A program made the position numbers and the translations under genes. Source: Natrinema saccharevitans (GTDB lineage Archaea > Halobacteriota > Halobacteria > Halobacteriales > Natrialbaceae). From it: DNA of 64,000 bases. Positions 5,301-52,571 of this stretch are shown here, in pieces. The DNA is taken from contig NZ_LWLN01000002.1 in NCBI RefSeq assembly GCF_001953745.1, forward strand, positions 1-64,000, written 5' to 3'. Position 1 is the first letter of the stretch; every line of letters starts with the position of its first letter. A model generated the notes under the pieces. That model had not been told where the DNA came from. It did no database searches and saw only the letters and a program-made list of their open reading frames with translations.

Positions 5301-5321
5301 ATAACGGACTAAGGTCGTTAT
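5301..5321. promoter_or_regulatory. 21-bp palindromic operator candidate, copy 1
   Basis: The site is ATAAC, eleven bases containing the core CTAAG, then GTTAT. Its reverse complement matches the site at 35296 at 20 of 21 positions. It lies between the IS6 end and the E3 gene, about 146 bp above the likely E3 TATA box. I infer that it binds a regulator of the acyl-CoA genes. The binding protein is not identified. Confidence 0.6.
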
Positions 5322-5463
5322 ATTCGGGAGTGTCAATTCGAGTACCAAAATCAACGGAAAGTAATACTCAAAAGAGTTTATTTGGCGAGAGCCGGTCAGA
5401 CGGAGAACGACGTCGGCCCGAATAGGCGACAGCGAAGCGGCCCTTCGAACCCGGCGATCACAA

Positions 5464-5495
5464 ACCACTATAAGCGATTCGAACGATTCCCGCGT
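5464..5495 (+). promoter_or_regulatory. Likely leaderless promoter of the E3 gene
   Basis: The TATA-like sequence ACTATAAG at 5467-5474 ends 22 nt before the ATG at 5496, the usual spacing for a leaderless haloarchaeal transcript. This supports the start at 5496 over the in-frame upstream start at 5382. Confidence 0.6.
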
Positions 5496-6899
5496 ATGGT
5501 AGCGACTGACGTTCTCGTGATAGGCGGTGGACCGGGCGGCTACAGCGCTGCGATTCGCGCCGCTCAACGCGACTGCCACGTCACGCTCGTCGACCGCGAC
5601 GGGATCGGCGGGACCTGTCTCAACAACGGCTGTATCCCCTCGAAGGCGCTGCTGACCGCATCGAACCTCGTCACCGAATTCGAGTCGGCCTCTCGGATGG
5701 GGATCTACGCCGAGCCGTTCGTCGAGGTCGGCGAGATGATCAGCTGGAAAAACGAGGTCGTCGACCAGCTCACGGGCGGCGTCGAAACGCTCTGTAAGGC
5801 GAACGGCGTTACCCTGCGAGAGGGAACGGCGCGTTTTATGGGCGACCACACCGCCGAAATCACCTCGGGGGACGGGTCCCCCACCGAACTCGAGTTCGAA
5901 AACGCGATCGTCGCGACCGGGAGTCGACCGATGGAACTCCCGGAATTCCCGTTCGACGCCGATCCGATTCTGAACTCCCGGCAGGCGCTGGCGCTCGAGA
6001 CGGCGCCGCGTTCGCTGGTCGTCGTCGGGGCGGGCTACATCGGGACGGAACTCGCGACGGTGTTCGCGAAGCTCGGGACGGACGTGACGGTCATCGAGAT
6101 GGAAGACGACGTGTTACCGGGGTACGAATCGGATCTCACTCGGCCCGTCAAGGAGCGGGCCGAGTCGGTGGGCGTCGACTTCCGGTTCGGTCAGGTCGCG
6201 GCCGACTGGACTCGAGCGGACGACGGGACCGTCACCCTCTCGACTGACGGGACGAACGGGAACAGTCTCGAAATGACCGCCGAGAAGTTCCTCGTCGCGA
6301 TCGGTCGGGAGCCAGTCTCCGATACGCTCGACCTCGAGTCGGTCGGCGTGGCGCCGACCGATGGCGGGTTCCTCGAGACCGACGATCGGATGCGGACGAG
6401 TCGCGATCACGTCTTCGCGGTCGGTGACGTGGCCGGCGAACCGATGCTCGCACACGAGGCGATCGCCGAAGGACTCGTCGCCGCGGAGGTCGCGTCGGGC
6501 GGCGACGCCGCGCTTCGCGACGCCGCGATCCCGACGGCGGTGTTCGTGGATCCGGAAATCGCGACCGTCGGACTGACGGAAGCGGAAGCGCGCGACGCCG
6601 GCCACTCACCGGTCGTCGGTGAGTTCTCGTTCGACGCCAGCGGCCGAGCGCTCACGCTGTCGGAGACGGACGGGTTCGTCCGCGTCGTCGCCGGAGAGGA
6701 CGGCGGCCGACTCCTCGGCGCACAGATCGCGGGTCCGGAGGCGTCCGAGTTGATCGGCGAACTCGGACTGGCGGTCGAGACGGGACTGACGCTCGAGGAC
6801 GTCGCCGGCACCGTCCACATGCACCCGACGCTCTCGGAGGCGGTCATGGAGGCCTGCGAGAACGCGCTCGGACGGGCGATACACACGCTGAACCGGTGA
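5496..6899 (+). CDS. lpdA: Dihydrolipoyl dehydrogenase (E3)
   Basis: A 467-residue flavoprotein that reoxidises dihydrolipoamide on 2-oxoacid dehydrogenase complexes with NAD. The FAD loop GGGPGG is at residues 10-15, the redox pair C41/C46 lies in GGTCLNNGCIPSK, the NAD-binding loop is VVGAGYIGTE, and the dimer-interface active-site segment MHPTLSE is near the C-terminus. Length is normal. It stands apart from the E1alpha/E1beta/E2 genes at 18702-22206 but is the only E3 in the window, so it probably serves them. The 21-bp palindrome lies 175 bp upstream of the start. Confidence 0.93.
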   Translation: MVATDVLVIGGGPGGYSAAIRAAQRDCHVTLVDRDGIGGTCLNNGCIPSKALLTASNLVTEFESASRMGIYAEPFVEVGEMISWKNEVVDQLTGGVETLCKANGVTLREGTARFMGDHTAEITSGDGSPTELEFENAIVATGSRPMELPEFPFDADPILNSRQALALETAPRSLVVVGAGYIGTELATVFAKLGTDVTVIEMEDDVLPGYESDLTRPVKERAESVGVDFRFGQVAADWTRADDGTVTLSTDGTNGNSLEMTAEKFLVAIGREPVSDTLDLESVGVAPTDGGFLETDDRMRTSRDHVFAVGDVAGEPMLAHEAIAEGLVAAEVASGGDAALRDAAIPTAVFVDPEIATVGLTEAEARDAGHSPVVGEFSFDASGRALTLSETDGFVRVVAGEDGGRLLGAQIAGPEASELIGELGLAVETGLTLEDVAGTVHMHPTLSEAVMEACENALGRAIHTLNR

Positions 6900-6923
6900 C
6901 CGACGGCGCGACCGCGACTCGCA

Positions 6924-8138
6924 TCAGGGCTCGACGAGTACTTTGATACGATCGCTGTCGGGATCGCGAAGCTGCTCGAACGCCGATTCGGTCTCCTCGA
7001 GCGAAACGGTTCCGGAGATCATCGGTTCGGGATCGATGCGCCCGTCGGCCACGTAGTCCAGCGCGGTCGCGAACTCCGACCGCGAGGCGAGCGGGCCGCC
7101 CTGGAACCCGAACGAGCCGACGAGTTCCCGCTCCGCCTGCATGACGTCGTTGGGGTGGATCGGGACCTCCTCCTCGAAAACGCTGAGGACGACGACCCGT
7201 TCCCCGTACGCGGTACTCCGGAGCGCGTCCGTGAGCGTCGCGGCCGTTCCGGCACACTCGAACGAGACGTCCACGCGGTCAGTGTCCCGTTGAATCTCCT
7301 CGACGGCGTCGACGGCAGTCGGGTCGATGACGACGTCGGCTCCGAGCGCCGCCGCGGCCTCTCGACGGGCCGCTCGCGGTTCGCTGACGTAGATCTCACG
7401 GGCACCGGCCGCGGCAGCGCCGGCGACGACGCCGAGACCGATCGGACCGGCGCCGAACACCGCGACGCGATCGGTCGGCTCAAGGCCCGATCGGCGAACG
7501 CCTCGAAGCGAGACGCCGAGGGGTTCCGCGAGCGCAGCGTGGCGAAGCGACACCTCGTCCGGAACGGGAACCGCCATCGAAGACGGGACAACGATCCGAT
7601 CCGCGAATCCCCGGCTGGCGACGACGCCGCCGTCCCCCTGCTCGCAGAGGTGGTACTTGCCGTCCGCACAGTAGCGGCAGTCGTGGCAGGCAGTGACCAT
7701 ATTCAACGTGATCCGATCGCCGACGCGAACGTCGTCGACGTTCGCGCCCGGCATCTTCCGGATCTCCTCGACCTCCGCGAAGACCGTCTCCGTGAGTCGG
7801 TTCCGCGGAACGACGCGATTGACCATTCCCAACTCCGCCGCTCGCTGCGCGTCGACAACCTTGCCGGAGAGCAGCAGTTCCGTCGCCTCGTGGAGGTTCG
7901 TGACGAAGGGGTAGACCAGCGTCGGCGGGACCCCGGCCATCCGCAATCCCGGGTAGCCGAACGACGATTCCTCGGTCGCGATCACGAGGTCGGACGCCAT
8001 CGCCAGATCGCTTCCGCCGGCGAGACAGTAGCCGTCGACCGCCGCGATCACCGGTTTATCACACTCCCAGACTGCGTGGACGTGATCGGTCGCGGCGTCG
8101 AACTCGTCGAAAACGGAACCCTCGAGCCGGTCGTCCAC
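6924..8138 (-). pseudogene. In-frame fusion of an enoyl-CoA hydratase fragment and a truncated zinc alcohol dehydrogenase
   Basis: The open frame of 404 codons joins two unrelated partial genes. Residues 1-131 are the middle and end of an enoyl-CoA hydratase (KPVIAAVDGYCLAGG, FGYPGLRMAG, ELGMVNRVVP). From about residue 132 (base 7745) it becomes a medium-chain dehydrogenase with structural-zinc cysteines CHDCRYC and NAD loop GAGPIGLG, of the sorbitol/butanediol dehydrogenase type. The hydratase lacks its N-terminus. The dehydrogenase lacks about 75 N-terminal residues, including the catalytic-zinc Cys and GHE segment. A deletion fused them in frame, and neither activity is likely to survive. 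Confidence 0.8.
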
Positions 8139-8225
8139 GAGCGATACTCGCTCGCGGAAGCCGATCGGGCGTTCGCCGACATGGCGGATCGCAACGCAGT
8201 CGGGAAGCTCGTCGTGGAGCCCTGA
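8100..8225 (+). pseudogene. C-terminal remnant of a zinc-type dehydrogenase/quinone reductase
   Basis: The last 41 codons read ELVENGTLEPVV, then YSLAEADRAFADM and NAVGKLVVEP before a TGA. This is the standard C-terminus of medium-chain alcohol dehydrogenases and quinone reductases. The rest of that gene is absent, and upstream DNA on this strand is antisense to the hydratase fragment. The remnant overlaps the start of the fused frame on the other strand, so this point is a multi-gene deletion scar. Confidence 0.7.
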
Positions 8226-8246
8226 TCGGCGGTCCGCGAGCGGGGG

Positions 8247-9770
8247 TCAGGCGAGTTCGTTCTTCAGCACCTTGCCGGTGGGATTCCGCGGTAGCTCGTC
8301 TCTGAACTCGACCTCGCGGGGCTTCTTGAATCCGGCCAGGTTCGCCCCGACGTGGTCGACGACGTCGTCCTCGGACAGCGCGGCTCCGTCTTCGGGAACG
8401 ACGACGGCTTTCACCCGTTCGCCCCACTGGTCGTCGGGGACGCCGACGACCGCGACCTCGTCTACCCCCTCGAGGTCGTGGAGTACCTCCTCGATCTCCG
8501 CGGGATGGACGTTCTCGCCGCCGGTGATGATCATGTCGTCGGCCCGGCCGACGAAGTAGACGAAGCCGTCCTCGTCCATCCGGACGAGATCGTCGGAGAC
8601 GAACCAATCGTCGTCGAACACCTCGGTCGTCTGCTCCGGCATGCCGTAGTACTCTTTGAACACCGTCGGACCGCGGTAGGCGATCCGTCCCGCCTCGCCG
8701 GTCTCGACCTCGTTGCCGGCCTCGTCGACGACCTTGACTTCGACGTTGATGATCGGTCGCCCCACGCTGTCGGGCTTCTCGAGCGCGTTCTCCGGGCGCA
8801 GCATCGTCGTCGACGGCGAGAGTTCGGTCTGACCGAAGACGTCGTAGAGGTTACAGTCGAAGGTCTCGATGATCGCCTCCTTGAGAGAGCGCTCCGAGGG
8901 CGCCGCGCCGGTCATGTAGTGTTCGAACGACGAGAGGTCGTAGGACTCGGGGTCGGCCGACAGCACCGCACGGCTCATCATCGGGACCATGAACGTCGCC
9001 GTCACGGACTCGTCCTCGAGGACCGAGAGGACCGACGCCGGTTCGAAGTCGTCGACCAGAATCGTCGTCCCGCCGACGTAGAACGACATCATGAACAACC
9101 CGAACGCGGCGATGTGGAACAGCGGCGTCACCACCATGAACCGGGCGTCGCGGGAGAGGTTCACCTCGTAGAGGGAGTTCTCCGCTGCCTGAACGACGTT
9201 ATCGTGCGTGAGGACACAGCCCTTCGGCTTGCCGGTCGTCCCGCTCGTGTACATGATGGCCGCCTCGTCGGCCCTGGCGGGGACGACGTCGACGGGATCG
9301 GCCGACGCGTCGTCCCGTACCGTCTCGTAGTCGGTCGCGAACGCCGGTGTCGACTCACCGACGTGCAGGTACTCCTCGACCGGCGAATCGAACTCGTCGT
9401 GGACGCCGGCGATCGTCTCGCGGCCGGCCTCGTCGAAGATACACAGCGCCGCGTCGCTGTCCTCGAGAACGTAGTTCACCTCGCCGGCTTTGAACCGATG
9501 ATTGATCGGTACCGGCAAGGCACCGAGCTTCATCGTCGCGAGATAGCTCTCGATCGTCTCGATTCGGTTCCCCGTGTACGTCGCGACCGTCGCTCCCGCT
9601 TCGATACCCCGTTCCGCGAGCGCGTTCGCCAGTTGATCTACCCTGCGGTTGAGTTCCTCGAAGGTCTCCGCCTCGGTTCGCTCACCGTCCGCTCGTTGAA
9701 CGACGGCGTCGCCGTCCGGCTGCGTACGCGCGTTCCGTTCCGCGAGGTAGCCGACTGTGAGTCCGTCCAT
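8247..9770 (-). CDS. AMP-forming acyl-CoA ligase
   Basis: A fatty-acid-type acyl-CoA synthetase of 507 residues, forming acyl-AMP and then acyl-CoA. The ATP/AMP P-loop is YTSGTTGKPKG, with the adenylate segment YDVFGQTELSP, the hinge region VGRADDMIITGGENVHPAEIE split across the two domains, and the catalytic Lys in NPTGKVLKNEL at the end. I start at the ATG at 9770 (MDGLTVGYL). The longer frame opens with a TTG inside AT-rich promoter-like DNA. It follows the decarboxylase-like gene and the small zinc protein on the same strand and may be co-transcribed. Confidence 0.9.
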   Translation of the reverse strand: MDGLTVGYLAERNARTQPDGDAVVQRADGERTEAETFEELNRRVDQLANALAERGIEAGATVATYTGNRIETIESYLATMKLGALPVPINHRFKAGEVNYVLEDSDAALCIFDEAGRETIAGVHDEFDSPVEEYLHVGESTPAFATDYETVRDDASADPVDVVPARADEAAIMYTSGTTGKPKGCVLTHDNVVQAAENSLYEVNLSRDARFMVVTPLFHIAAFGLFMMSFYVGGTTILVDDFEPASVLSVLEDESVTATFMVPMMSRAVLSADPESYDLSSFEHYMTGAAPSERSLKEAIIETFDCNLYDVFGQTELSPSTTMLRPENALEKPDSVGRPIINVEVKVVDEAGNEVETGEAGRIAYRGPTVFKEYYGMPEQTTEVFDDDWFVSDDLVRMDEDGFVYFVGRADDMIITGGENVHPAEIEEVLHDLEGVDEVAVVGVPDDQWGERVKAVVVPEDGAALSEDDVVDHVGANLAGFKKPREVEFRDELPRNPTGKVLKNELA

Positions 9771-9793
9771 ATAGTGTTTGATGATAACATAAC

Positions 9794-10003
9794 TCAAAAA
9801 GTTATGGCTCGGTGCGGTGGATCGGCGAGGTGTCCTCGCCGGTGCGTTCGCGCTCGGAGCGCTTCGAGATCGGTCTCCAGATCGTGGAGGATCGGATCCT
9901 CGGTTCGAGCGATCTCGTGGTCGATCAACACAGCGCAGTCAGGACAGTGGAATCGCCGGACAAGGACGGAGCCACCGCAGACGACCCGGACAGCGGCCAA
10001 CAC
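9794..10003 (-). CDS. Small zinc-type protein resembling the C-terminus of acetone carboxylase gamma subunit
   Basis: A 69-residue protein with GTG start only 7 nt after the stop of the upstream decarboxylase-like gene, so probably translated with it. The recognisable part is RRFHCPDCAVLIDHEI followed by DPILHDLETDL. It resembles the C-terminal CxxC segment of acetone carboxylase gamma subunits, which are normally about 160-170 residues. Either this is a short zinc-binding member or a truncated one. HyuA/HyuB proteins related to acetone carboxylase beta and alpha subunits lie 4 kb away. The assignment rests on pattern memory, not alignment. Confidence 0.55.
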   Translation of the reverse strand: MLAAVRVVCGGSVLVRRFHCPDCAVLIDHEIARTEDPILHDLETDLEALRARTHRRGHLADPPHRAITF

Positions 10004-10010
10004 TGTGGGC

Positions 10011-10796
10011 TCAGTCGGACAGATTGTCCAACTCGAGCCAGTCGTTGCTGCGTCCGGCCCCGAAGGCGTACGGGAGGAACGATTCGGGGTCGACGGTGGT
10101 CACGTTCTCCTGTGTCGTGCGCAAGTCCGCTTCGGTGTACGACGCGCCGAGGACTTCCGCTATTTCGAGGTCACTGAGCGGGCCGTTCGGGCCCTCGCCC
10201 AGCGAAAGCGATCCGGTACCGGACTCGTACGCGGCGAGATCGCTGTCCAACGTGACCCGCACCAGCGTCGGGTCGAACTGGAACCCCCGCCCGGTCGCGT
10301 CGGGAAGTGCCTTGTAGTGATAGACCGTCTGCGACGTCGGTTCGGGTTCCCGTTTCGCGTCGATAGTCGCGTCGATCTCGATGAGCGACTCGCCTCGACG
10401 GCTCACTCGCCCGCGCACCTCGTCGCCGGTGCGCTCGAGCGAGATGGTAGCTTTCGTCTTCGGTTCGCCGAACAGCTCTCGGCCCCACGCGATCGCTTCC
10501 TCCGTCGACATCGGCATGGTTACGCAGTACTCTCCGACGTGGCCGTCGTGCTGCGCACGGACGTAGACGCCGCCGCCGCGGAACGAGCCGACGCAGTTAC
10601 TGCGTCCGACGTCGACGACGTCGGCTCGCATCACCGGGTCCTCGATCGGTTCCAGACCGGGCGGGAGAATCCGCTCGACAGTCGACTCGCGAGTGCGAAA
10701 CCTGATCGCCACCTGCTTCGCGTCGTAGAATCGGTTCTCCGCCATCCGTTCTTGAATCGCTTCGATCTCGTCTCTCGACCGAACGAGTCCGGACAT
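10011..10796 (-). CDS. Acetoacetate decarboxylase-family protein
   Basis: A 261-residue member of the acetoacetate decarboxylase fold. Enzymes of the true family decarboxylate acetoacetate through a Schiff-base lysine. The corresponding region here is FGEPKTKATISL, preceded by YCVTMPMSTEEAIAWGRE, and the N-terminal part has YDAKQVAIRFRT. Many family members are not decarboxylases, so the reaction is uncertain. It heads a minus-strand group with the small zinc protein and the CoA ligase at 8247. Confidence 0.8.
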   Translation of the reverse strand: MSGLVRSRDEIEAIQERMAENRFYDAKQVAIRFRTRESTVERILPPGLEPIEDPVMRADVVDVGRSNCVGSFRGGGVYVRAQHDGHVGEYCVTMPMSTEEAIAWGRELFGEPKTKATISLERTGDEVRGRVSRRGESLIEIDATIDAKREPEPTSQTVYHYKALPDATGRGFQFDPTLVRVTLDSDLAAYESGTGSLSLGEGPNGPLSDLEIAEVLGASYTEADLRTTQENVTTVDPESFLPYAFGAGRSNDWLELDNLSD

Positions 10797-10944
10797 GGTC
10801 CGTGGTCACCGTCCCGGATATTAACGGTTCGCCTCGGGGGGACGCCGTCGAGTCCGAACGCGTCCGTCGACCGGTTCGCGGGCGACCGAACGGGACCGCT
10901 GTCCCACCCGAACGCTAATGTATCAGCTCCGAATGTCACTATGT

Positions 10945-12177
10945 ATGGATTTCGGGATCCCGGAGCCGCTCCAGCAGTTGCTCGACGAACTCGACGCGTT
11001 CATCGAAGCGGAGATCGAACCCCTCCAGCGGGAACACGACCGGTTCTTCGATCATCGACGCGAGGACGCGCGGACGAACTGGGAGGACGGTACGCCGACG
11101 GCCGAGTGGGAGGCGTTGCTCGAGGAGATGCGCCGACGCGCCGACGAAGCCGGGTTCTACCGGTACATGCTTCCCGAGGAGTACGGCGGCCGGGACGGGA
11201 GCAACCTCGGAATGGCGGTGATTCGGGAACACCTCGCCAGCAAGGGCGTCGGCCTGCACAACGTCTTGCAGCAGGAGGCCGCCGTCGTCGGCAACTTCAA
11301 CGTCGCCGAGTTGGTACTCGAGTTCGGGAGCGAAGAGCGAAAAGAGCGCCACCTCGAGGACCTCATCGAGGGCGAGACCACCGCCGCGTTCGGCCTGTCC
11401 GAACCCGAACACGGCAGCGACGCGACGCACATGGACACCACGGCCGAGAAAGCGGGCGACGAGTGGGTGATCAACGGCGCCAAGCGCTGGAACAGCGGGA
11501 TGCACACCGCCGACTACGACGTCATCTTCGCTCGGACCGACGGCGAGGACGGCGACCACGAAGGGATCACCGCGTTCTGGGTGCCGACGGACGCGGACGG
11601 GGTCGACGTCGAGTACTTCCACTGGACGTTCAACATGCCGACCGACCACGCCGAGGTGACCCTCGACGACGTTCGCGTTCCCGACGACGCGATCCTCGGC
11701 GAGGAAGGGAAAGGGCTCCAGCAGGCGTCGTACTTCGTCCACGAGGGCCGCATCAGGCAGGCCGCCTCGAGCGTCGGGGCCGCCCAGTACTGTATCGACG
11801 AGGCGGTCGAGTTCGCGAAGGACCGCCACACCTGGGACGAACCGCTCGCGAAGCGACAGGGGATCCAGTTCCCGCTCGCCGACCTGCACACGGAGGCCGA
11901 GCTGGTTCGAAACCTGGTGTACAAGACGGCGTGGCAACTCGACGAGGGCAGTCAACAGAGTGTCAGCGACAAGGTCTCGATGGCGAACTACCGCGCGAAC
12001 CTGCTGGCGTGTGACGCCGCCGACCGGGCGATGCAGGTCCACGGCGGACAGGGGTACACGCGCCACAAGCCGTTCGAACACGTCTACCGTCACCACCGGC
12101 GCTACCGTATCACCGAGGGATCGGAGGAGATCCAGAAGCGCAACGTCGCCGGGCACCTGTTCGACTACCTCGGGTAG
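10945..12177 (+). CDS. Acyl-CoA dehydrogenase (ACAD10/11-like)
   Basis: About 410 residues. FAD-dependent alpha-beta oxidation of acyl-CoA is expected. Motifs include YMLPEEYGGRDGS, FGLSEPEHGSDATHM, and the C-terminal VHGGQGYTRHKPFEHVYR with EGSEEIQKRNVA holding the region of the catalytic base. Starts at 10918, 10933 and 10945 are all possible. I prefer MDFGIPEP at 10945, where family similarity begins. The next two genes encode a DUF6285-like protein and an APH-type kinase, a set that also travels with ACAD10/11-like dehydrogenases in bacteria. Confidence 0.9.
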   Translation: MDFGIPEPLQQLLDELDAFIEAEIEPLQREHDRFFDHRREDARTNWEDGTPTAEWEALLEEMRRRADEAGFYRYMLPEEYGGRDGSNLGMAVIREHLASKGVGLHNVLQQEAAVVGNFNVAELVLEFGSEERKERHLEDLIEGETTAAFGLSEPEHGSDATHMDTTAEKAGDEWVINGAKRWNSGMHTADYDVIFARTDGEDGDHEGITAFWVPTDADGVDVEYFHWTFNMPTDHAEVTLDDVRVPDDAILGEEGKGLQQASYFVHEGRIRQAASSVGAAQYCIDEAVEFAKDRHTWDEPLAKRQGIQFPLADLHTEAELVRNLVYKTAWQLDEGSQQSVSDKVSMANYRANLLACDAADRAMQVHGGQGYTRHKPFEHVYRHHRRYRITEGSEEIQKRNVAGHLFDYLG

Positions 12178-12222
12178 GGGTGACCCGCAGTTTTTTGTAA
12201 CGATACCGTACTATACCAAGGT

Positions 12223-12696
12223 ATGCCATACCTCGATCCGGAGCTGATACTGGACCGGTTCGCGGCGTTCACCCGCGAGGAAGTCCGACCCGCCGTCACC
12301 GACGACGAGTTCGTCCACGCACAGGTCGGCTCGATGGCGTCGACGCTCCAGTTCTTGGCCGGCGACGTCGGTGGGCGGGAGGCCGCCGTTCGAGTACAGC
12401 GCCGAACCCTCCGCGAGAGCCTGACCGAACTCGAGTCGGCACTCGATCGACACGACGTCGGCTCGTCGGCAGTGCGAACTGCGGTCGACGACGCTCGGAG
12501 CGACCTCGAGACCGCAGACGGACCGACGAGAGACGTCGAGGAGACGCTGGTGGCCGTCGCGGACGACGTCCTGACGACGATCGACGCGGAGTTAGACGGG
12601 GACGCTGCGGCGGTTGCCCGGCGACCGCTGTACGACTTCCTCCGAACGCGCGTCGACGAGCAGCTCCGACTACTCGGCCGGGAGGACGACGAATGA
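12223..12696 (+). CDS. Small helical protein, DUF6285-like, partner of the phosphotransferase
   Basis: A 157-residue acidic protein starting MPYLDPELILDRF and continuing HAQVGSMASTLQFLAGD. It is predicted mostly helical, without cysteines, signal or membrane segment. Its length, and its position between an acyl-CoA dehydrogenase and an aminoglycoside-phosphotransferase-like kinase, match the DUF6285 family. Its stop overlaps the next start by 4 nt (ATGA), indicating translational coupling. No function is established. Confidence 0.65.
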   Translation: MPYLDPELILDRFAAFTREEVRPAVTDDEFVHAQVGSMASTLQFLAGDVGGREAAVRVQRRTLRESLTELESALDRHDVGSSAVRTAVDDARSDLETADGPTRDVEETLVAVADDVLTTIDAELDGDAAAVARRPLYDFLRTRVDEQLRLLGREDDE

Positions 12697-13760
12697 CGGA
12701 CTTTTCGTCCGACGCGCTCTCGACGTATCTCTCCGGGACACTCGGCGACGGGGGCGTGACCGTCGACGACGTCGTCGCCCACACCGAGGGATGGTCTCGA
12801 GACACGGTGTCGTTCACGGCTCGCTATCGCGAGGGAGGCGACGAGGTGACCGAACGGCTCGTCCTGCGAGCCGAGAACGAACTCCAGCACGACATCGACG
12901 ACGAGTCGCTGCCCGGCAACGACATTCGGACGGAGTACGAGACGGTCGCGGCGGCGCAAGACGCACCCGTTCCGGTCCCGCGGGTTCGCTGGTTCGACGA
13001 GACCGGCGGGCCGTTCGGACGCGGCCTCTTCGTCATGGATCACCTCGAGGGGGAGCCGCCGATCACGTGGGATCCGCGCGACCGGCAGGACTTGTACGAC
13101 GCGTGGGACTCGGACGACCGACGCCTTCCGAACCGGTTCGTCGACGCCGCCGCGGGCGTCCATTCGATCGACGGCGCGGCGATTCCGGGGATCGAAGACG
13201 TCCCGCCCGACGAGGTCGTAACTCGCGAGATCGACCGCTGGGAGGAACTGTACCGGAGCGCCGAACTGAAGCGGGAGCCGGCGGTCGAGGAGGCGATCCG
13301 CTGGTTCCGCGCGAACGCGCCGACGGTTCCCGAAACGACGCTGGTCCACGGCGACTTCCGGATCGGCAACGCCCTCATCGACGGCGATCGGATCACCGGG
13401 CTGCTCGACTGGGAGTTCGCCCGCGTCGGCGATCCCCTGTTCGACCTCGGCTACGCGAGTACGCGGTACTTCGCCGGAAAACTCGTCGAGCCGATCGAGC
13501 GGCCCGAACTGGCCTGTTCGCTGCTCGAGCGGGAGTGGTTCTACGACGAGTACGAGCGCCGGACGGGACGGACCGTCGACCGCGAGCGCGTCCGCTACTG
13601 GCAGGCGTTCTCGGCGTTCGTCATGCTCACCATCTGCTGCTGGGGTGCCAGTCAGTACGAGACCGGCTCGAGCGACGACGTCCGCAACGCCTGGTTCCAG
13701 TACCCCGTCCCGGGGCTGATCGAGGACCTGCTCGCCATCATCGAGGACGACCGTCTCTGA
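12693..13760 (+). CDS. APH-family phosphotransferase (ACAD10/11 kinase-like)
   Basis: A 355-residue kinase of the aminoglycoside phosphotransferase superfamily. The Brenner-type catalytic segment LVHGDFRIGNALI and the metal-binding DWEFARVGDPLFDLGY are intact, and an early loop reads GRGLFVMDHLEGE. In mammals such kinase domains are fused to or partnered with ACAD10/11 and phosphorylate 4-hydroxyacyl-CoA. By analogy this trio may process hydroxylated acyl-CoAs, which is inference. It is translationally coupled to the DUF6285-like gene. Confidence 0.82.
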   Translation: MTDFSSDALSTYLSGTLGDGGVTVDDVVAHTEGWSRDTVSFTARYREGGDEVTERLVLRAENELQHDIDDESLPGNDIRTEYETVAAAQDAPVPVPRVRWFDETGGPFGRGLFVMDHLEGEPPITWDPRDRQDLYDAWDSDDRRLPNRFVDAAAGVHSIDGAAIPGIEDVPPDEVVTREIDRWEELYRSAELKREPAVEEAIRWFRANAPTVPETTLVHGDFRIGNALIDGDRITGLLDWEFARVGDPLFDLGYASTRYFAGKLVEPIERPELACSLLEREWFYDEYERRTGRTVDRERVRYWQAFSAFVMLTICCWGASQYETGSSDDVRNAWFQYPVPGLIEDLLAIIEDDRL

Positions 13761-13869
13761 GAGACCGAGACTCGACCCCTCGGAGAACCGCCCCGTTCCG
13801 AAGCGACCGCTCCGCCGGTACTCCTCGTCCCGTACAGCCCTCGCCGCTGTAGCCCATTGATAACAGTTA

Positions 13870-13916
13870 CCACAACATATATTGGACCGGCTGTGGACAC
13901 CGGAGACGAACAGTAC
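13870..13916 (+). promoter_or_regulatory. Likely promoter of the hyuA-hyuB operon
   Basis: CATATATT at 13876-13884 is a good TATA box about 33 nt before the ATG at 13917. It argues that the in-frame start at 13857 is not used. Confidence 0.55.
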
Positions 13917-15989: not shown

Positions 15990-17665
15990 GCGGAACGAAC
16001 GACACCGGGGCGACCGATTCGGCAGGCCTCGAGACGCAGGTGCTGTGGAACCGACTCCAAGCGACCGCCGACGAGATGTACGACGCCGCCGAGCGGCTGG
16101 CGTACTCTTTCTCCATTCGAGAGGGGGCCGACGCCTCGACGGCAGTCATGACGGCCGACGGCGACGCGATCGGCCTCTCGGACCAGTCCGTCCCCGTTCT
16201 CTCGGGGGCGCTCTCCCGGACGACGAGGATTATCCTTGCGGACTACTTCCCGCCCGAGACGCTCGAGCCCGGCGACACAATCATCACGAACGATCCCTGG
16301 AGCGGGGGCGGCCACCTGTCGGACGTGGTCGTTCTGAACCCCGTCTTCCACGACGGCGACCTCGTCAGCATCGTCGGCAGTCTGGGACACACCGACGACG
16401 TGGGCGGGAACCGCGGCGGCTGGTCGACTGACGCCGAACAGGTGTACGAGGAGGGACTCCTCGTTCCGCCCGTGAAACTCTACGAGGCTGGCGAGCGAAA
16501 CGACGCTATCGACTCCGTCATCCGGAGCAACGTCCGGATCCCCCATCAGGCGCTCGGAGACCTCGAGGCATTGCGATCGGGGAACACGGTCGGCGAGGAA
16601 CGAGTTCGCGAAATCGTCGACGAACGGGGCCCCGAAACGTTCGACCGCGTCGCCGACGAAGTTATCACCCGAACCGAACGGGCGCTCCGGGAGCGATTCG
16701 CCGATCTGCCCGACGGCACCTACGAGGAGTCGGTCGAGTTCGCCATCGCCGACCACGACCTCGAAATCTGCGTCGCCGCGACGATCGACGGCGACGACCT
16801 CGAGGTCGACTTCACCGGGACGTCGGCACAGGTCGAGGGCGGGATCAACTGCCCGTTCGGAAACATCGTCACCATCACCGAGTACATCGTCAAGTGCATG
16901 CTCGTCCCCGATCTGCCGAACGCGGAGGGATTCTTCCGGCCGATCGAGGTGACCGCTCCGGAGGGATCGATTCTCAACTGCGATCGGCCGAAGGCCACGA
17001 TGGGACGGCACCTCACGTACTCGCGAGCGGAAGACGCGCTCATCCGCGCGCTGGGTCAGGTCGTCCCCGAATCGGCGCTCTCCGAGATGGCGGGCATTCA
17101 GCTTGCGCCGTTTTCGGGCGCCGACGAGAACGGCGACGAGTTCATCGCCGTCGGCGGGACGGCCGGCGGCCTTCCGCCCAGCGCCGACAAGGACGGCATC
17201 CCCGGCGTCTACTTCCCGTACAACGGCCAGAACACACCGATCGAAATGTTCGAACGGTACAGCCCCCTCCGCTGGGAGGAGACGGCGCTCGTCCCCGACA
17301 GCGAGGGCGCCGGGGAACACCGGTCCGGCCCGGCGATGCGGACGTCGTACCACAATCCGACCGAGCGGCGGGTGTACTTCGCGCTCACCTCCGGCCGGGC
17401 CGATGACGACCCATCGGGGTTCCGCGGTGGTCGGCCGGGCAACCGAGCGACGACCGCGTCCTCGAGCGACGAGAAGGACGTCCCGCCGAACGGGTCCGGC
17501 GTACTCGAGCCCGGCGAAACGCTCACGCTCGTCTCGGCGACGCCCGGTGGATACGGCGATCCCGAGGACCGCGACCCCGAAGCCGTCGCGGAGGACGTCG
17601 AGCAGGGGCTGCTCACCGAAGAGCGCGCCCGCGAGGTCTACGGCTACCAACCCGACGAGCCATGA
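15986..17665 (+). CDS. hyuB: Hydantoinase B family protein (HyuB; acetone carboxylase alpha-like)
   Basis: A 559-residue partner of HyuA. It shows NDPWSGGGHLSDVVV, SLGHTDDVGG, DFTGTSAQVEGGINCPFGN and the C-terminal GGYGDPEDRDPEAVAEDV, all standard HyuB signatures. The ATG overlaps the hyuA stop (ATGA), and its own stop overlaps the start of the following broken luciferase-family gene in the same way, so three genes formed one operon. It would act with HyuA as a heteromer in the cytoplasm. Confidence 0.88.
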   Translation: MSGTNDTGATDSAGLETQVLWNRLQATADEMYDAAERLAYSFSIREGADASTAVMTADGDAIGLSDQSVPVLSGALSRTTRIILADYFPPETLEPGDTIITNDPWSGGGHLSDVVVLNPVFHDGDLVSIVGSLGHTDDVGGNRGGWSTDAEQVYEEGLLVPPVKLYEAGERNDAIDSVIRSNVRIPHQALGDLEALRSGNTVGEERVREIVDERGPETFDRVADEVITRTERALRERFADLPDGTYEESVEFAIADHDLEICVAATIDGDDLEVDFTGTSAQVEGGINCPFGNIVTITEYIVKCMLVPDLPNAEGFFRPIEVTAPEGSILNCDRPKATMGRHLTYSRAEDALIRALGQVVPESALSEMAGIQLAPFSGADENGDEFIAVGGTAGGLPPSADKDGIPGVYFPYNGQNTPIEMFERYSPLRWEETALVPDSEGAGEHRSGPAMRTSYHNPTERRVYFALTSGRADDDPSGFRGGRPGNRATTASSSDEKDVPPNGSGVLEPGETLTLVSATPGGYGDPEDRDPEAVAEDVEQGLLTEERAREVYGYQPDEP

Positions 17666-18663: not shown

Positions 18664-18701
18664 GAGCGACCGACTCGGGGTCCGGTCCGTCGCGCCCCGT
18701 G

Positions 18702-25529: not shown

Positions 25530-26705
25530 CTAGACCCGCTCGAGGATCGTGGCGATCCCCTGTCCGAAGCCGATGCACATGGTCGACAGCGCCGTGTCTT
25601 GGCCCGTCCGCTCGAGTTCGTGGGCCAACTTGGTCAGCAACATCGCGCCGGTCGCGCCCAGCGGGTGGCCGTGGGCGATCGCGCCGCCGTTGACGTTGAC
25701 GTCCTCCCAGGACGCGCCGGTCTCCTCGAGCCAGGCGGCGACGACCGAGGCGAAGGCCTCGTTGACCTCGAACAGATCGATGTCGCCGACCGACATGTCG
25801 GCCTGCTCGAGGACGTTCTCGGTGGCCGGAATCGGTCCCTTGAGCATCGTCACGGGGTCGACGCCGACGACCTCGGTCTGGACGATGCGGGCCATCGGGT
25901 CCCAGCCGTGTGCCTCGGCGGCCGCCTCGCTCGCGATCAGCAACGCGGCCGAGCCGTCGACGATCCCCGAGGAGTTTCCGGGGTGGTGAAAGCCCTCGCC
26001 CTCCTCGCGGAACGACAGCGGCAGTTCCGAGAGGGTTTCCATATCGGTTCCGGGACGGGGGTGTTCGTCCTGTTCGACGACCACCTCTTCCCCGTCGAGT
26101 TCGGTCTCGACCGGCGTGATCTGGTCATCGTAGCGGTCCCCGTCCCAGGCCTCCTTCCAGCGCCGTTGGGAGTCGACGGCGATCTCGTCGAGTTGCTCGC
26201 GCGTGAACCCATACTCCTCGGCGATGCGTTCGGCGCCTTCGCCTTGGTGGGTCAGCTCGTCGAAGTGTTCGAAGTAGGTGTCGGTGACGGATTCCGATCC
26301 GTCGGCGCCGGCGACGCCGTCCGACCCCATCGGCACGCGGGTCATGTGTTCGACCCCGCCCGCGATGAGGACGTCGTGCTGGCCGGCCATGACGTTCGCC
26401 GCGGCGAAGTTCGCCGCCTGCTGGCCCGATCCGCACATCCGATTGAGTTGGACGCCCGGAACGATATCGCCCCAGCCGGCGACCATCGGTGCGATTCTGG
26501 CGATGTTTAACCCCTGTTCGTCCGTCGGCGTTACGCAGCCGTAGATGACGTCTTCGACCGTCTCCGGCTCGAAGTCGTTGCGCTCGCGCAGCGCCTCGAG
26601 GGGTTCGGCCGCGAGGTCCTGAGGATGGGTGTCGCGGAACGATCCGTCTCGTTTTCCGAACGGCGTCCGAACTGCGTCGACGATAACTGCGTTTCTTATT
26701 GTCAC
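25530..26705 (-). CDS. Acetyl-CoA C-acyltransferase (thiolase)
   Basis: A 391-residue thiolase that cleaves 3-oxoacyl-CoA with CoA or runs in reverse. The nucleophilic Cys is C91 in NRMCGSGQQ. GGVEHMTRVP, the C-terminal His segment NGGAIAHGHPLGATGA and the second catalytic Cys in MCIGFGQG are all present. The start is GTG (VTIRNAVIVDAVRTP). A TATA-like sequence (minus-strand CCTATTACC, plus 26729-26737) lies 24-32 nt upstream, and the 21-bp palindrome lies 165 bp upstream. Confidence 0.93.
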   Translation of the reverse strand: MTIRNAVIVDAVRTPFGKRDGSFRDTHPQDLAAEPLEALRERNDFEPETVEDVIYGCVTPTDEQGLNIARIAPMVAGWGDIVPGVQLNRMCGSGQQAANFAAANVMAGQHDVLIAGGVEHMTRVPMGSDGVAGADGSESVTDTYFEHFDELTHQGEGAERIAEEYGFTREQLDEIAVDSQRRWKEAWDGDRYDDQITPVETELDGEEVVVEQDEHPRPGTDMETLSELPLSFREEGEGFHHPGNSSGIVDGSAALLIASEAAAEAHGWDPMARIVQTEVVGVDPVTMLKGPIPATENVLEQADMSVGDIDLFEVNEAFASVVAAWLEETGASWEDVNVNGGAIAHGHPLGATGAMLLTKLAHELERTGQDTALSTMCIGFGQGIATILERV

Positions 26706-27130
26706 GTGTCTCGTTAACTACCGGCTCGGTAATAGGCTTTGTTCCCGTTCGTCGCGGTAGACGGTCCTCTTAGCGTCTCGTTCGATCGTTTATCGACACC
26801 ATGTGACGTTATAACAACTAACGCTCCCGTTGGCTTTCCGGCGGACTTGACCGCGAATCGGACGATCAAATAACGAACTAAGTCAGTTATCTTTTCGACC
26901 GGTGTTGTGGATCCAAACACCGACTATTGTATATGGTATCTAATATCGAACTGACGTTCCACATACGGAAGGCACCGAATCTGAGCCGCGCTTTCGAACG
27001 ACTCGTCGCCCTGCGCATCGCGGCGTATACCGAACGAGCAGTCACCTCGGGAAGACGCGGCGACCGGCGAAGAAGGGGTTCGGTAACTGAGAGCGCCCCA
27101 CGATCGCCTCGTTCGGTCGCGAGAGGCGTG
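26706..27130. other. Regulatory intergenic region upstream of the thiolase
   Basis: About 425 bp between two minus-strand genes. It holds the thiolase promoter, the 21-bp palindrome at 26870-26890 and a half-site-like GTTATAAC near 26812. No gene with recognisable motifs is seen. The long plus-strand frame starting at 26927 is antisense to the ligase. Confidence 0.5.
26870..26890. promoter_or_regulatory. 21-bp palindromic operator candidate, copy 2
   Basis: ATAAC, eleven bases with core CTAAG, then GTTAT. The same architecture is found at 5301 and 35296. The proximal edge is 133 bp above the likely thiolase TATA box, close to the spacing at the other two sites. Confidence 0.6.
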
Positions 27131-28432: not shown

Positions 28433-28433
28433 A

Positions 28434-31257: not shown

Positions 31258-31377
31258 GGCGATAGCTACGGTCATCCACGATGGATAAGCTTCGATTAGC
31301 GGCAAAGTCGTCCAGAAAGGGTACCGGCTCGACGGACGTCTCGGTACTGGACTCGAGGTCCGCCCCTGTCGTCCGGT

Positions 31378-32604
31378 CTACGTTTCCACGCCGTATTGCT
31401 TCGCGATCGTGTTGAGCTGGATCTCGTCGGTCCCTTCGACGATCCGCTGGATCCGTGCGCGGTGAAGTCGATCCATGAAGAGGTTCTCCTCGGCGAGTCC
31501 GTTGGCGCCGTGAAGCTGGACGACGTCGTCGGCGATCTCCCAGAACGCGTTGGTCGCGAACCACTTGAGGATCGACGATTCGGCGATCGCGGGGTCGCCC
31601 TGATCGAGCAGCCACGCGCACTTGAGGCCGACAGTGTCGGCCGCCATCGCGTTCGCTCGACCGCGCGCGATCTTGTGCGATACCGCCTGATACCGGCCGA
31701 TATGCTCGCCGAACGCTTCGCGTTCGTTCGCGTACTCAGTGGCCTTGTCGAGCAGCCCTTCCGCGTGGCCGACCGCCGTCGCACCGATCTCGACGCGGCC
31801 GAGTCCGAGGAACGACATCGCGTCGTAGAACGCGTTGTCGACGCTCCCGAGGACGCGGTCGGCCGGAAGCCGGACGTCGTCGAGGTGGACCTCCGCCTGA
31901 ACGCCGGTCGCACCGACGGCGTTGTTCAGCGTCCCGATCTCGTACTCGTCTTCCTCGACGATGAAACACGTGATGCCGCCGTGTCTGCCGGCCTCCTCCT
32001 GGGGCGTCGTCCGCGCGAACACCTGAATGAAGTCCGCGTAGGGGGCGTTCGTGATCCACTGCTTCGTTCCGTTCAGCTCCCACTCGTCGCCGTCCTTCTC
32101 GGCTCGCGTCTCCATGTTCGGCGAGTCCGATCCGACCCCGGGCTCCGTCTGCCCGAACGCGGTCGTCTTCTCCCCTCGCATCGCCGGCTCGAGGTATCGC
32201 TCGACCTGCTGTCCCTCGGCCTGTGCGAGCAACGGCTTCGGGCCCTCCGGACCGGCGAGAACGTCCGACGCCAGCGGCACGTCCTTCGTCGCGAGGCGTT
32301 TGTTCGCCCGGTACCAGGTCACGGCCGACACGTCCTCGCCGCCGACCGCTTCGGGCATGTTCATCGCGTAGAATCCGGCCTCGGCGCTCTTTCGTCGCAC
32401 TTCGTCTTTCGCCTCGAGGACCTCGTCGGTCAGACGGCCATCGGGCTCGTGTCCGAGTCTGGGGTTGGTGAGCGTCTCGCCGAGTTCGTCGGCGAGGGGC
32501 TCGACTTCCTGCTCGACGAACTCGTCGAGGCTCTCGAGGATGAGTTCCGTCTCGTCGGCGGTCCCGAACGAAACGCCGGAACCGGTCTCCGCTGATCGTG
32601 CCAT
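31378..32604 (-). CDS. Acyl-CoA dehydrogenase
   Basis: A 408-residue FAD-dependent acyl-CoA dehydrogenase. FGQTEPGVGSDSPNMETR, KQWITNAPYADF, LGLGRVEIGATAVGHAEG and the C-terminal QLHGANGLAEENLFMDRLHRA followed by EGTDEIQLNTIA are intact. The start is MARSAETGSG at 32604. The very long frame reaching 33783 is only an open upstream extension antisense to the hydratase gene. A minus-strand TATA box (TTTATATG, plus about 32633-32641) lies 30-36 nt above the start. Confidence 0.93.
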   Translation of the reverse strand: MARSAETGSGVSFGTADETELILESLDEFVEQEVEPLADELGETLTNPRLGHEPDGRLTDEVLEAKDEVRRKSAEAGFYAMNMPEAVGGEDVSAVTWYRANKRLATKDVPLASDVLAGPEGPKPLLAQAEGQQVERYLEPAMRGEKTTAFGQTEPGVGSDSPNMETRAEKDGDEWELNGTKQWITNAPYADFIQVFARTTPQEEAGRHGGITCFIVEEDEYEIGTLNNAVGATGVQAEVHLDDVRLPADRVLGSVDNAFYDAMSFLGLGRVEIGATAVGHAEGLLDKATEYANEREAFGEHIGRYQAVSHKIARGRANAMAADTVGLKCAWLLDQGDPAIAESSILKWFATNAFWEIADDVVQLHGANGLAEENLFMDRLHRARIQRIVEGTDEIQLNTIAKQYGVET

Positions 32605-32734
32605 GCGTACGCACTCCGTTAGTCCGAATACACATATAAATCTCGCCATCGACAGAGGAATGCTGTCAACTACGACCGGCCGCCGGCCCGGGACCGTGCC
32701 TCGAACCGTTCGACTCGAGGGGCGAAGCGGCGGT

Positions 32735-32766
32735 ACAATTAAGGCGAATCTGGTCGTCCCTCCGGT
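32735..32766 (+). promoter_or_regulatory. Likely leaderless promoter of the enoyl-CoA hydratase gene
   Basis: ACAATTAAG at 32735-32743 is 24-32 nt before the ATG at 32767, the usual haloarchaeal TATA-to-start spacing. It is back to back with the promoter of the divergent acyl-CoA dehydrogenase. Confidence 0.5.
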
Positions 32767-33576
32767 ATGCGAGAGGTTGGCACTGGTCACGTACTCGTGG
32801 ACGTCGACGGCCACCGCGCCGACGTCGTTCTGAACCGTCCGGACAAGCGAAACGCGATGAACGAGGCCCTCCTGTCGGACCTGAAGCGAGCGTTCGAGAC
32901 GGTCGACGCGAACGAGGACGTTCGCGCCGTCGCACTGCTCGGCGAGGGGCCCGTCTTCTGTGCGGGGATGGACCTCGAGATGATGCGCGATCGAGGCGAG
33001 CAGGCCCAGGAAGGAGAGCGTCGCGGAGACGATAGCGCCGGCGACCTGCTCGGAGACGTCGTCGAGGCCATCGATACCGCACGCGTTCCGACCGTCGTCG
33101 GGATCAAGCGCGCCGCGCCCGCCGGCGCGTTCGAGCTGTCGCTGCCCGCCGACTTCCGCGTCATCTCCGAAGACGCGAACTACGGCGTCATCGAGGTCAA
33201 ACTCGGTACCTTCCCGCACGGCGGTGCGACCCAACGGCTGCCCCGCATGATCGGGCTGGCGAAGGCGAAGGAACTGGTTCTGGGCGGGGAGTTCATCGAC
33301 CCCGCGGAAGCCGAGCGGATCGGGCTCGTCAACGAGGTCTGCGACGCGGACGCGGTCGACGACCGCGCTCGCGAACTGGCCGACGACCTCGCCGAGAACG
33401 CGCCGCTGGGAATGGAACGTGCCCGAGAGGCCCTCAATGCGGCGCTCGAGATGCCGCTCGATGACGGACTCGCCTACGAGCGCACCCTCGGAGCGCAACT
33501 CGACGACACGCACGACTATACGGAAGGGTTCACGGCCCGACTCGAGGGACGCGAACCGGAGTTCGAGGGTCGCTGA
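32767..33576 (+). CDS. Enoyl-CoA hydratase/isomerase family protein
   Basis: A 269-residue crotonase-fold enzyme hydrating 2-enoyl-CoA. The oxyanion-hole segment is GPVFCAGMDLEMM. Both usual catalytic glutamates are placed: one in PAGAFELSLPADF and one in YGVIEVKLGTFPHGGATQRL. The C-terminal ERIGLVNEVCD and EGFTARLEGREPEFEGR are typical. It is divergent from the acyl-CoA dehydrogenase at 31378 and the two probably act in the same oxidation route. Confidence 0.92.
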   Translation: MREVGTGHVLVDVDGHRADVVLNRPDKRNAMNEALLSDLKRAFETVDANEDVRAVALLGEGPVFCAGMDLEMMRDRGEQAQEGERRGDDSAGDLLGDVVEAIDTARVPTVVGIKRAAPAGAFELSLPADFRVISEDANYGVIEVKLGTFPHGGATQRLPRMIGLAKAKELVLGGEFIDPAEAERIGLVNEVCDADAVDDRARELADDLAENAPLGMERAREALNAALEMPLDDGLAYERTLGAQLDDTHDYTEGFTARLEGREPEFEGR

Positions 33577-33631
33577 GCGACCCGACCGCCAGCGGGTCGG
33601 CGACGGCAGCGTCTCAACTGTCCTTGGGGGC

Positions 33632-33844: not shown

Positions 33845-33970
33845 CGCGTTTCGCACGAATGTGTCGATTCTAATACCGTTTGGTGTTCGGCGGGGTCCCC
33901 GAACGCCGCCGCTCGCTTCGTCGTCCGTTCGGCTACCACGCCGCGACGATCGAGGGGCCGGTGAACCGAT

Positions 33971-34007
33971 CAGGAGAATTATAACGGTAGATCGTGTCCG
34001 TGGTAGC
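33971..34007 (+). promoter_or_regulatory. Likely leaderless promoter of the second enoyl-CoA hydratase gene
   Basis: AATTATAA at 33977-33984 lies about 24-31 nt before the ATG at 34008, which supports that start over the long upstream open frame. Confidence 0.5.
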
Positions 34008-34808
34008 ATGGCGCATTCACTGCCGGAGTGTGAGAACTTCGTCCTCGAGCGGGACGGTGCCGTCCTCTCGATCACGATCGACAGCACGACGAAATTCAAC
34101 TCGCTCAACGACGGGATGGGCGACGAACTGCTCGAACTGGCGAGTTTTCTCGCCGGCGACGACGAGACCCGATGTGCCGTGATGACGGGAACGGACGGAG
34201 TCTTCTGTGCCGGTGCCGACGTCGAGAGCTTCGCCGGCGACGACCACGGACCCGACTCTGTCCGGCGCGGAGCGTCGATCCTGCACGACGCGATCGTCCA
34301 GTTCCATCAGGCGGACGTCCCGCTGGTCACCGGCGTCAACGGCGTCGCGACCGGTGCCGGCCTCGGAATCGCCCTTCTGGGCGATCTGGTCGTCGTGAGC
34401 GAGGACGCCCGGTTCGAATACGGCTATCCGCGGCTCGGACTCCCTGGGGACGGCGGGGCGACGTTCCACCTCCCGCGGCTCGTCGGTCTCAGACGGGCGA
34501 AGGAGATCGCACTGCTCGATCGACCGATCTCGCCAGCGGAGGCCGTCGACTGGGGACTGGCGACCGAATCGGTCCCCGGCGACGAACTGGACGACCGGCT
34601 CGAGGAGTTGGCGAGCGAACTGGCGTCCGGACCGACGCGAGCCTACGGTGCCGCCAAACGACTCCTCGCGCGGAGCCTCGATCGATCGCTCGAGGAGCAA
34701 CTCGCAGCGGAGACCGACGCCATCGCCAGGGGAGCAGAGACCGACGATCACGCCGAAGGCGTCGCGGCGTTCGTCGAACGGCGCGAACCGAAGTTCGAGG
34801 GACACTGA
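34008..34808 (+). CDS. Enoyl-CoA hydratase/isomerase family protein lacking the usual glutamates
   Basis: A 266-residue crotonase-fold protein with DGVFCAGADVESFAG and the oxyanion segment NGVATGAGLGIALLGDL. The two glutamates used by hydratases are replaced (GLGIAL in place of the first, YGYPRLGL near the second), while GDGGATFHLPRL is kept. It may therefore be an isomerase, thioester hydrolase or another crotonase-fold enzyme. Length and C-terminus (FVERREPKFEGH) are normal. It lies in a beta-oxidation neighbourhood but has its own promoter. Confidence 0.88.
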   Translation: MAHSLPECENFVLERDGAVLSITIDSTTKFNSLNDGMGDELLELASFLAGDDETRCAVMTGTDGVFCAGADVESFAGDDHGPDSVRRGASILHDAIVQFHQADVPLVTGVNGVATGAGLGIALLGDLVVVSEDARFEYGYPRLGLPGDGGATFHLPRLVGLRRAKEIALLDRPISPAEAVDWGLATESVPGDELDDRLEELASELASGPTRAYGAAKRLLARSLDRSLEEQLAAETDAIARGAETDDHAEGVAAFVERREPKFEGH

Positions 34809-34902
34809 AACGAACTCCCTCGAGCGACCGAGAGACCGCGACTGCGTTTTCCGGTGAGGAAACATACAAACGGTCGGCTCCCGCACTATGGAATAGAGTA
34901 CC

Positions 34903-35148
34903 ATGGCAGAGAAAATCAACCTCTCGCGGGTAGAGCAGGTACCACCGGACGCGCGGGTCTACCACTACGACGAACTGCCCGAGCGTGCGAAGACTCACCT
35001 TCCCCGCCTGGTCGACGCCGAGGCGTCGGAAGTGTTCGCCCCCGAACGGGTCGCTGAGGAACTCGAACCGTACGATCTCGTCAAGTTCACCGAATACTAT
35101 CGAATCACGGTCCGCGAGGACCCGCTCTCGACGCCACAGTTTTCCTGA
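34903..35148 (+). CDS. Small conserved-looking haloarchaeal protein, function unknown
   Basis: An 81-residue acidic protein reading MAEKINLSRVEQVPPDARVY, then HYDELPERAKTHLPRLVDAE and a C-terminal VKFTEYYRITVRED. It has a proper ATG, haloarchaeal composition and a plausible upstream A/T-rich region, but no cysteines, signal or known motif. It resembles small haloarchaeal proteins of unknown function. No role can be given. Confidence 0.6.
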   Translation: MAEKINLSRVEQVPPDARVYHYDELPERAKTHLPRLVDAEASEVFAPERVAEELEPYDLVKFTEYYRITVREDPLSTPQFS

Positions 35149-35503
35149 TAGGGGCCCCCGGTACCGGCCCTGACCGACCCGATAGCATCAGGCATCGAAA
35201 CCCATCGGTATCGTCCGATTCTGTCCACCGTGTCACATTGCCCGTACACTACGATGATTTGATTTCACATATCGCTTCGATCCGTCGCGAATTGAATAAC
35301 GTCCTTAGTCCGTTATTCCCTCCGGTCGGAGTTGCAGTACAAATCCGCCGGGTGCGATTATCCGGACTACATCGAACGTGAAAAGTACTATAACGTTATC
35401 CCGTGAGACCGCTCCGGTCACTCTCCGATTCGGCTCCGGCACTCCGTCCGTCAGTAATTATATTACGGTGGGTACGGATGCTAGTGGTGAGGCATGACCT
35501 AGC
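35149..35503 (+). other. Regulatory intergenic region upstream of 3-hydroxyacyl-CoA dehydrogenase
   Basis: About 355 bp, AT-rich for this genome. It contains the 21-bp palindrome at 35296-35316, a shorter palindrome ATAACGTTAT near 35391-35400 and a TATA-like TAATTATAT at 35455-35463. A two-codon upstream reading frame (ATG ACC TAG) lies at 35494, just before the gene start at 35504. Confidence 0.55.
35296..35316. promoter_or_regulatory. 21-bp palindromic operator candidate, copy 3
   Basis: ATAAC, eleven bases with core CTTAG, then GTTAT. It differs from the reverse complement of the site at 5301 at one position. It lies 139 bp above the likely TATA box of the hydroxyacyl-CoA dehydrogenase gene. 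Confidence 0.62.
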
Positions 35504-52551: not shown

Positions 52552-52571
52552 CCACCACAATTATCATTTCT

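Follow-up and report, generated by a model that had tools for sequence, protein, structure and literature searches.

Distal palindromes in haloarchaeal acyl-CoA catabolic clusters, and RdfA with an SMC-like partner as their probable reader

A stretch of 64,000 nucleotides from Natrinema saccharevitans (contig NZ_LWLN01000002.1), referred to below as the window, carries three copies of a 21-bp palindrome, each well above the TATA box or TATA-like box of a gene of acyl-CoA or oxoacid metabolism. Which protein reads these palindromes, and what might it do from such a distance?

Three palindromes and their target genes

An earlier note on this DNA had reported palindromes with a CTWAG core at 5301, 26870 and 35296. 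All coordinates were confirmed, the core being present in 3/3 of the sites, and so was the single-base difference between the reverse complement of site A and site C. The sites and the features around them are as follows.

5301..5321, site A: 21-bp palindrome, 147 bp upstream of the E3 (lpdA) TATA box
5469..5474, + strand: E3 TATA box, 27 nt ahead of the ATG of this leaderless gene; it reads CAAACCAYTATAA without variation in 5 genomes
5496..6899, + strand: E3 dihydrolipoyl dehydrogenase, target of site A (TIGR01350, 495.8 bits, over the cut-off)
25530..26705, - strand: thiolase, target of site B (Pfam Thiolase_N/C)
26730..26736, - strand: TATA-like box CCTATTA of thiolase
26870..26890, site B: 21-bp palindrome, 133 bp upstream of the thiolase TATA-like box
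34903..35148, + strand: small ORF of 81 aa, whose 3' end lies 150-205 bp from site C in relatives (tblastn)
35296..35316, site C: 21-bp palindrome, 141 bp above a TATA-like box and 148 bp past the 3' end of the small ORF
35458..35465, + strand: TATA-like box of 3-hydroxyacyl-CoA dehydrogenase
35504..36379, + strand: 3-hydroxyacyl-CoA dehydrogenase, downstream of site C here and not a conserved target (Pfam 3HCDH_N/3HCDH)

The three palindromes are genuine and are not explained by chance. Palindromes with at most one mismatch were found four times, compared to 0.22 expected from dinucleotide shuffles. Furthermore, a search of the 3.98-Mb genome with up to three mismatches to site A returned only sites A, B and C and position C2:411717 (reversed control, 0). 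The latter was discarded as a fourth target. Indeed, the end of contig C2 (L005, L006) is a 99.5-99.8% copy of window positions 1-15479, indicating that this contig is circular and was left untrimmed, and since its ends overlap by ~15.5 kb, C2:411717 is the same locus as 5301. The sites of this genome are grouped on one part of a megaplasmid.

Each palindrome had been described as preceding an acyl-CoA or oxoacid gene, 133-146 bp above its likely TATA box, and the distances that we measured (147, 133 and 141 bp) are close to this. The placements before E3 and thiolase are conserved. In the E3 promoters of five Natrinema genomes, the TATA box is invariant beside the ATG and the palindrome is found ~150 bp higher, at 173-179 bp from the E3 start or, in one genome with a 100-bp insertion, at 277 bp. 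Site B is kept before seven thiolase orthologues, 166-236 bp above the start. The spacing is therefore long, as claimed, but not fixed. The placement before 3-hydroxyacyl-CoA dehydrogenase was not borne out, and this gene was dropped as a conserved target: in relatives, site C stays at 150-205 bp from the 3' end of the small ORF behind an enoyl-CoA hydratase (ECH) gene, whereas its other neighbor varies between 3-hydroxyacyl-CoA dehydrogenase (as in the window), an acyl-CoA synthetase, and 3-hydroxyacyl-CoA dehydrogenase in the opposite orientation. The Natrinema salinisoli plasmid NZ_CP084470.1 carries the same cluster (PGAP annotation). There, sites precede the genes for an AMP-binding protein, thiolase and lpdA, and one end of the cluster holds rdfA, ASRP and asnC.

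Placement of the sites across Halobacteriales

Across Halobacteriales, the motif ATAACRNMCTWAGKNYGTTAT was found in few genomes and near catabolic genes. Among 125 genomes of the family, the strict pattern ATAACNNNCTWAGNNNGTTAT matched in 16 and its reversed control in none; the refined pattern TAACRNMCTWAGKNYGTTA matched in 24 of the 392 genomes of the order, where the control gave a single match. In 1.15 Mb around the sites, we obtained 50, 61 and 65 matches at 0, 1 and 2 mismatches, respectively, and none in the reversed sequence.

None of 64 sites was located inside a gene, even though 78% of the DNA is coding. Similarly, 0/49 sites lay less than 85 bp from a start codon, compared to 12 expected from random drops in the same gaps; among these 49, there is thus no operator over the TATA box or start, as a simple promoter-blocking repressor would use. 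Instead, 89% of the sites lie 85-340 bp above a start, versus 36% of the background. The acyl-CoA and oxoacid regulon with unusually distal sites that the earlier note had put forward is supported in many genomes, and neither a random spread of the motif nor a lack of conservation, both looked for across genomes, was observed.

The palindrome is an inverted repeat and could in principle be transcribed, acting as a hairpin (a terminator or an RNA element) and not as a protein site. We consider this extremely improbable. The sites stand upstream of the TATA boxes of genes with a short leader or none, the letters of the core do not vary, and the free arm positions are complementary in 22, 19 and 23 of 54 cases, compared to shuffled means of 24, 19 and 25. 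Such arms without covariation fit a protein site, and the RNA hairpin was rejected on this basis.

A plasmid maintenance element is nearly as improbable. Under this explanation, the palindromes would be centromere-like partition or replication sites, with a ParB-like RdfA and an SMC-like ATPase, and both the grouping of the sites on part of a megaplasmid and the SMC-like gene near site C (see below) would suit it. However, sites occur partly on plasmids and partly on contigs of 3.4-4.1 Mb (G032, G070, G102), presumably main chromosomes, and for this reason a partition site was rejected. Furthermore, there are just one to six sites per genome, spaced within ~14-96 kb, and they always lie beside catabolic genes at the distance from the starts given above.

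Genes that accompany the palindrome

Approximately 3-5 kb from site C, the window encodes an RdfA family protein and an archaea-specific SMC-related ATPase (ASRP/Sph), with an AsnC-type gene adjoining.

37608..38096, + strand: Lrp/AsnC-type regulator (HTH_AsnC PF13404, 36.4 bits versus a cut-off of 27)
38144..39991, - strand: ASRP/Sph, proposed partner of RdfA (NF045487, 482.4 bits versus a cut-off of 300)
39994..40578, - strand: RdfA family protein and putative palindrome reader (PF21811, 178.2 bits versus a cut-off of 27)

The ASRP matches NF045487 over its full length (profile positions 1-593 of 593). The RdfA gene adjoins the SMC-like gene both in the window (38144-39991 and 39994-40578) and in N. 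salinisoli (PGAP).

Motif and RdfA were found to go together. Membership in the RdfA clade of the window (clade 1) was set in the surveys at about 56-58% identity. An RdfA at least 58% identical is present in 17 of the 125 family genomes, namely all 16 strict-motif genomes and G118. The strict motif thus occurs in 16/17 genomes with a clade-1 RdfA and in 0/108 without (Fisher 3e-19; the genomes are related and the counts not independent). In G118, sites were predicted from the presence of RdfA, and degenerate ones were then found. Outside the family, all 12 motif genomes carry an RdfA of clade 1 or, next to the site, one of its sister clade (clade 2); in most cases the gene lies within ~25 kb of a site. 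A related RdfA is thus present in 30/30 exact-site genomes of the two surveys.

In the survey of the order, an RdfA at least 56% identical was found in 18 genomes, 15 of which have exact motifs. Two others, L249 (G303) and L250 (G191), have sites at one mismatch, and the remaining one (G126) is probably the MAG QS_8 (L207), which also has a one-mismatch site. Further clade-1 loci with one-mismatch sites were found in Halorientalis regularis, Haloglomus irregulare and Halocatena marina; within 8 kb of rdfA, there was no site in Halomarina halobia, Haladaptatus pallidirubidus and Halomarina rubra. For RdfA proteins at 45-48% identity (G371, G240, G281), the regions examined around the loci contained no CTWAG motif, and a search upstream of distant rdfA genes for other palindromes or paired repeats gave none that was convincing.

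Clade-2 RdfA proteins are about 36-43% identical to those of clade 1 (a clade-2 paralogue scores 147.6 bits with PF21811). Their CTWAG palindromes lie in the promoter of their own rdfA-asrp genes, beside amidohydrolase genes, and are often paired 52-70 bp apart. Overall, promoter palindromes were found at 22/88 rdfA loci, compared to 0.3 expected. Sites of this kind are hence also found with related RdfA modules in unrelated clusters. The sites differ in their outer bases, with ATAAC...GTTAT in clade 1 and TTAAC...GTTAA or TATACACCCTWAGGGTGTGAA in clade 2; at position -10, 92% of clade-1 half-sites have A and 82% of clade-2 half-sites have T. These motif classes coincide with the RdfA clades, which have 100/100 support.

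These data bear on another candidate binder, the AsnC/Lrp-type protein encoded at 37608-38096, for which RdfA and ASRP would be mere passengers of the cluster. This protein matches a Pfam HTH of the AsnC type, and odd-length palindromes are bound by Lrp-family dimers. AsnC relatives occur in 16/16 strict-motif family genomes, and in L026 one site is found 158 bp ahead of an asnC gene. We nevertheless hold this explanation to be unlikely. Indeed, at 28 clade-2 palindrome loci, RdfA and ASRP are present without any AsnC relative within about 8-10 kb, and AsnC as the sole binder is disfavored for this reason. Moreover, the site variants follow the RdfA clades, and three genomes with an AsnC relative at 41-42% identity (G044, G092, G113) have neither a clade-1 RdfA nor the strict motif. 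In clade 1, the AsnC-type protein is a possible co-regulator or effector sensor.

Two clade-1 loci (L205, L212) have RdfA and a site but no ASRP within 8 kb. Taken with the clade-2 loci devoid of AsnC, this identifies RdfA as the constant partner of the sites. ASRP and RdfA are nearly always adjacent, and co-occurrence cannot fully separate the two.

A predicted recognition helix and a proposed mechanism

The AlphaFold model of RdfA (mean pLDDT, 88.9) contains helices at residues 77-89, 94-100 and 104-114, and conservation within the family is highest over residues 77-114 (VS[YW]G..RTHL). Based on this secondary-structure pattern and conservation, residues 77-114 are predicted to form a helix-turn-helix; the C-terminus harbors zinc-ribbon-like cysteines. 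We refer to the helix-turn-helix as a prediction because Foldseek found no significant structural relative of RdfA in the PDB (best E, 1.5). No solved relative was found by sequence, and RdfA gave no significant match to an HTH Pfam family.

The CTWAG core goes together with the residue at position 105 of RdfA, in the predicted recognition helix. Outside clade 1, a promoter CTWAG palindrome is present for 23/30 proteins with Gly105 (seven are without a detected site) and for 0/46 with any other residue; the proteins are related, and the P value is only indicative. Clade-1 relatives with Ser105 likewise lack the motif, and the change at this residue is seen in both RdfA clades.

We consider it reasonably likely that the palindromes are sites of the RdfA encoded at 39994-40578, which would act distally, together with ASRP, on the catabolic operons; we infer binding, dimerization, the partner role of ASRP and the sign of regulation. 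As the motif occurs only alongside a matching RdfA, RdfA and its SMC-like partner are probably a site-specific gene regulator. An RdfA dimer would read the half-sites ATAACRNMCT and AGKNYGTTAT by its helix-turn-helix, with the VS[YW]G..RTHL signature in the recognition helix. Since the sites stand clear of the core promoter, on its upstream side, RdfA would act from afar. ASRP, its usual partner, would probably join sites to each other or to promoters, and in clade 1 the linked AsnC-type protein may supply ligand sensing. As a result, an acyl-CoA/oxoacid catabolic cluster of 30-100 kb would be expressed in a coordinated manner.

A bolder and doubtful version is that RdfA-ASRP represents a new type of archaeal regulator, in which RdfA hands palindromes to ASRP and the bridging of distant sites folds and switches the 30-100 kb catabolic domain as a unit. 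With such bridging, the cell-shape members discussed below would be one branch of a family of SMC-linked regulators, since RdfA paralogues differ in site preference.

Somewhat less probable still is that the sites are architectural anchors. RdfA-ASRP would then tether the catabolic domain, form loops in it or bring SMC-like ATPases to it, and individual promoters would be under little direct control. This would agree with the SMC-like nature of the partner, the distance of the sites from core promoters, the presence of some sites between convergent genes, and the behavior of site C, which holds its distance to the ECH/small-ORF 3' end when its other neighbor changes. However, the E3 and thiolase sites are kept above the same start codons in five and seven genomes, and clade-2 sites are paired within the rdfA promoter itself, which makes clade-2 rdfA look autoregulated. 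Convergent gaps are not preferred either, as they hold 9% of the sites versus 15% of the background. That a few sites do sit between convergent genes nevertheless counts against RdfA as a regulator of the operons. In MatP-matS/MukBEF and ParB-parS/SMC, a site-specific DNA-binding protein works with an SMC-type ATPase. These systems serve chromosome structure or segregation, whereas the sites described here precede catabolic operons.

In Sulfolobus, the TetR-family regulator FadR-Sa controls fatty acid genes (PMC6449355). As is proposed here for RdfA, FadR-Sa acts locally on an archaeal cluster of fatty-acid genes; the present system differs in that its sites lie 85-340 bp above starts, and Pfam scans of about 40 window proteins showed no TetR-family gene. 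Archaea-specific SMC-related proteins (ClsN/Sph) have been described, ClsN being associated with low-transcription chromosome compartments, and the part of that paper covered here describes no sequence-specific adaptor or palindrome for haloarchaeal Sph (PMC9389158). The window protein encoded at 38144-39991 passes the NCBI equivalog cut-off for ASRP.

RdfA and Sph/ASRP are widespread, with several copies per genome, and their mechanism is not known; in the literature searched, neither had been linked to a DNA site or regulon. One RdfA/ASRP branch now gains a candidate DNA target and target genes, together with a candidate recognition helix in which one residue tracks the site; this makes the role of RdfA/ASRP directly testable. 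For haloarchaeal physiology, a probable regulator can be named for a large acyl-CoA catabolic island on megaplasmids.

The best-studied pair, RdfA-Sph3 of Haloferax volcanii, has the same two protein families side by side as in the window, and 42 of 54 RdfA proteins are adjacent to an SMC-like gene (PMC10869688). That pair is needed for rod shape and motility and is known for these functions and not for gene regulation (PMC10869688), which counts against our reading of RdfA. No DNA site is described for it there, whereas the paralogous pair of the window comes with a palindrome and catabolic genes. Our findings suggest that Haloferax rdfA/sph3 mutants could owe their cell-shape phenotype indirectly to gene regulation.

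Clade-2 rdfA loci

A second rdfA-asrp pair, belonging to clade 2, the sister clade of the window-type RdfA, was found on the window's own plasmid (G000:C2:292331-293110; L078:9202-10015 in locus coordinates), and its promoter holds two palindromes. Two RdfA paralogues with near-identical sites therefore coexist. In the clade-2B rdfA promoters (L191:9600-10500 and loci L187-L189), we found TATACACCCTWAGGGTGTGAA in two copies, spaced by about 59-69 bp, and this sequence is a distinct site variant.

Other features of the window

34903-35148: 81-aa ORF, no Pfam match
43935-56297: operon for phosphonate C-P lyase, including PhnH, PhnI and PhnJ with their neighbours
With this operon (43935-56297): phosphonate ABC transporter
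Adjoining this operon (43935-56297): PhoU/AbrB-like gene

The 81-aa ORF is kept in relatives, in its position behind the enoyl-CoA hydratase gene. Site A, the palindrome upstream of lpdA, adjoins an IS-like element at about 4300-5150, which consists of a transposase-like ORF and inverted repeats of about 86 bp; a second copy, 84% identical, lies at 42361-43194. Since positions 10011-17665 unite an acetoacetate decarboxylase family member and a hydantoinase A/B pair, with a CoA-transferase III close by, this region suggests a degradation island for ketone, aromatic or terpenoid acids.

Contig ends and apparent frameshifts

Alignment revealed an overlap of the contig ends of ~15.5 kb (window 1-15479 and G000:C2 about 406420-421898), with few mismatches yet 16-23 gaps in each aligned piece. 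The contig is circular and untrimmed, and one copy of the overlap carries indel errors.

Several genes at 22390-23139, 31378-33513 and 8352-12014 are apparently split or fused through frameshifts, in line with homopolymer indels. Among the affected genes are an SDR gene in two pieces and an acyl-CoA dehydrogenase with a 300-aa N terminus lacking a Pfam match.
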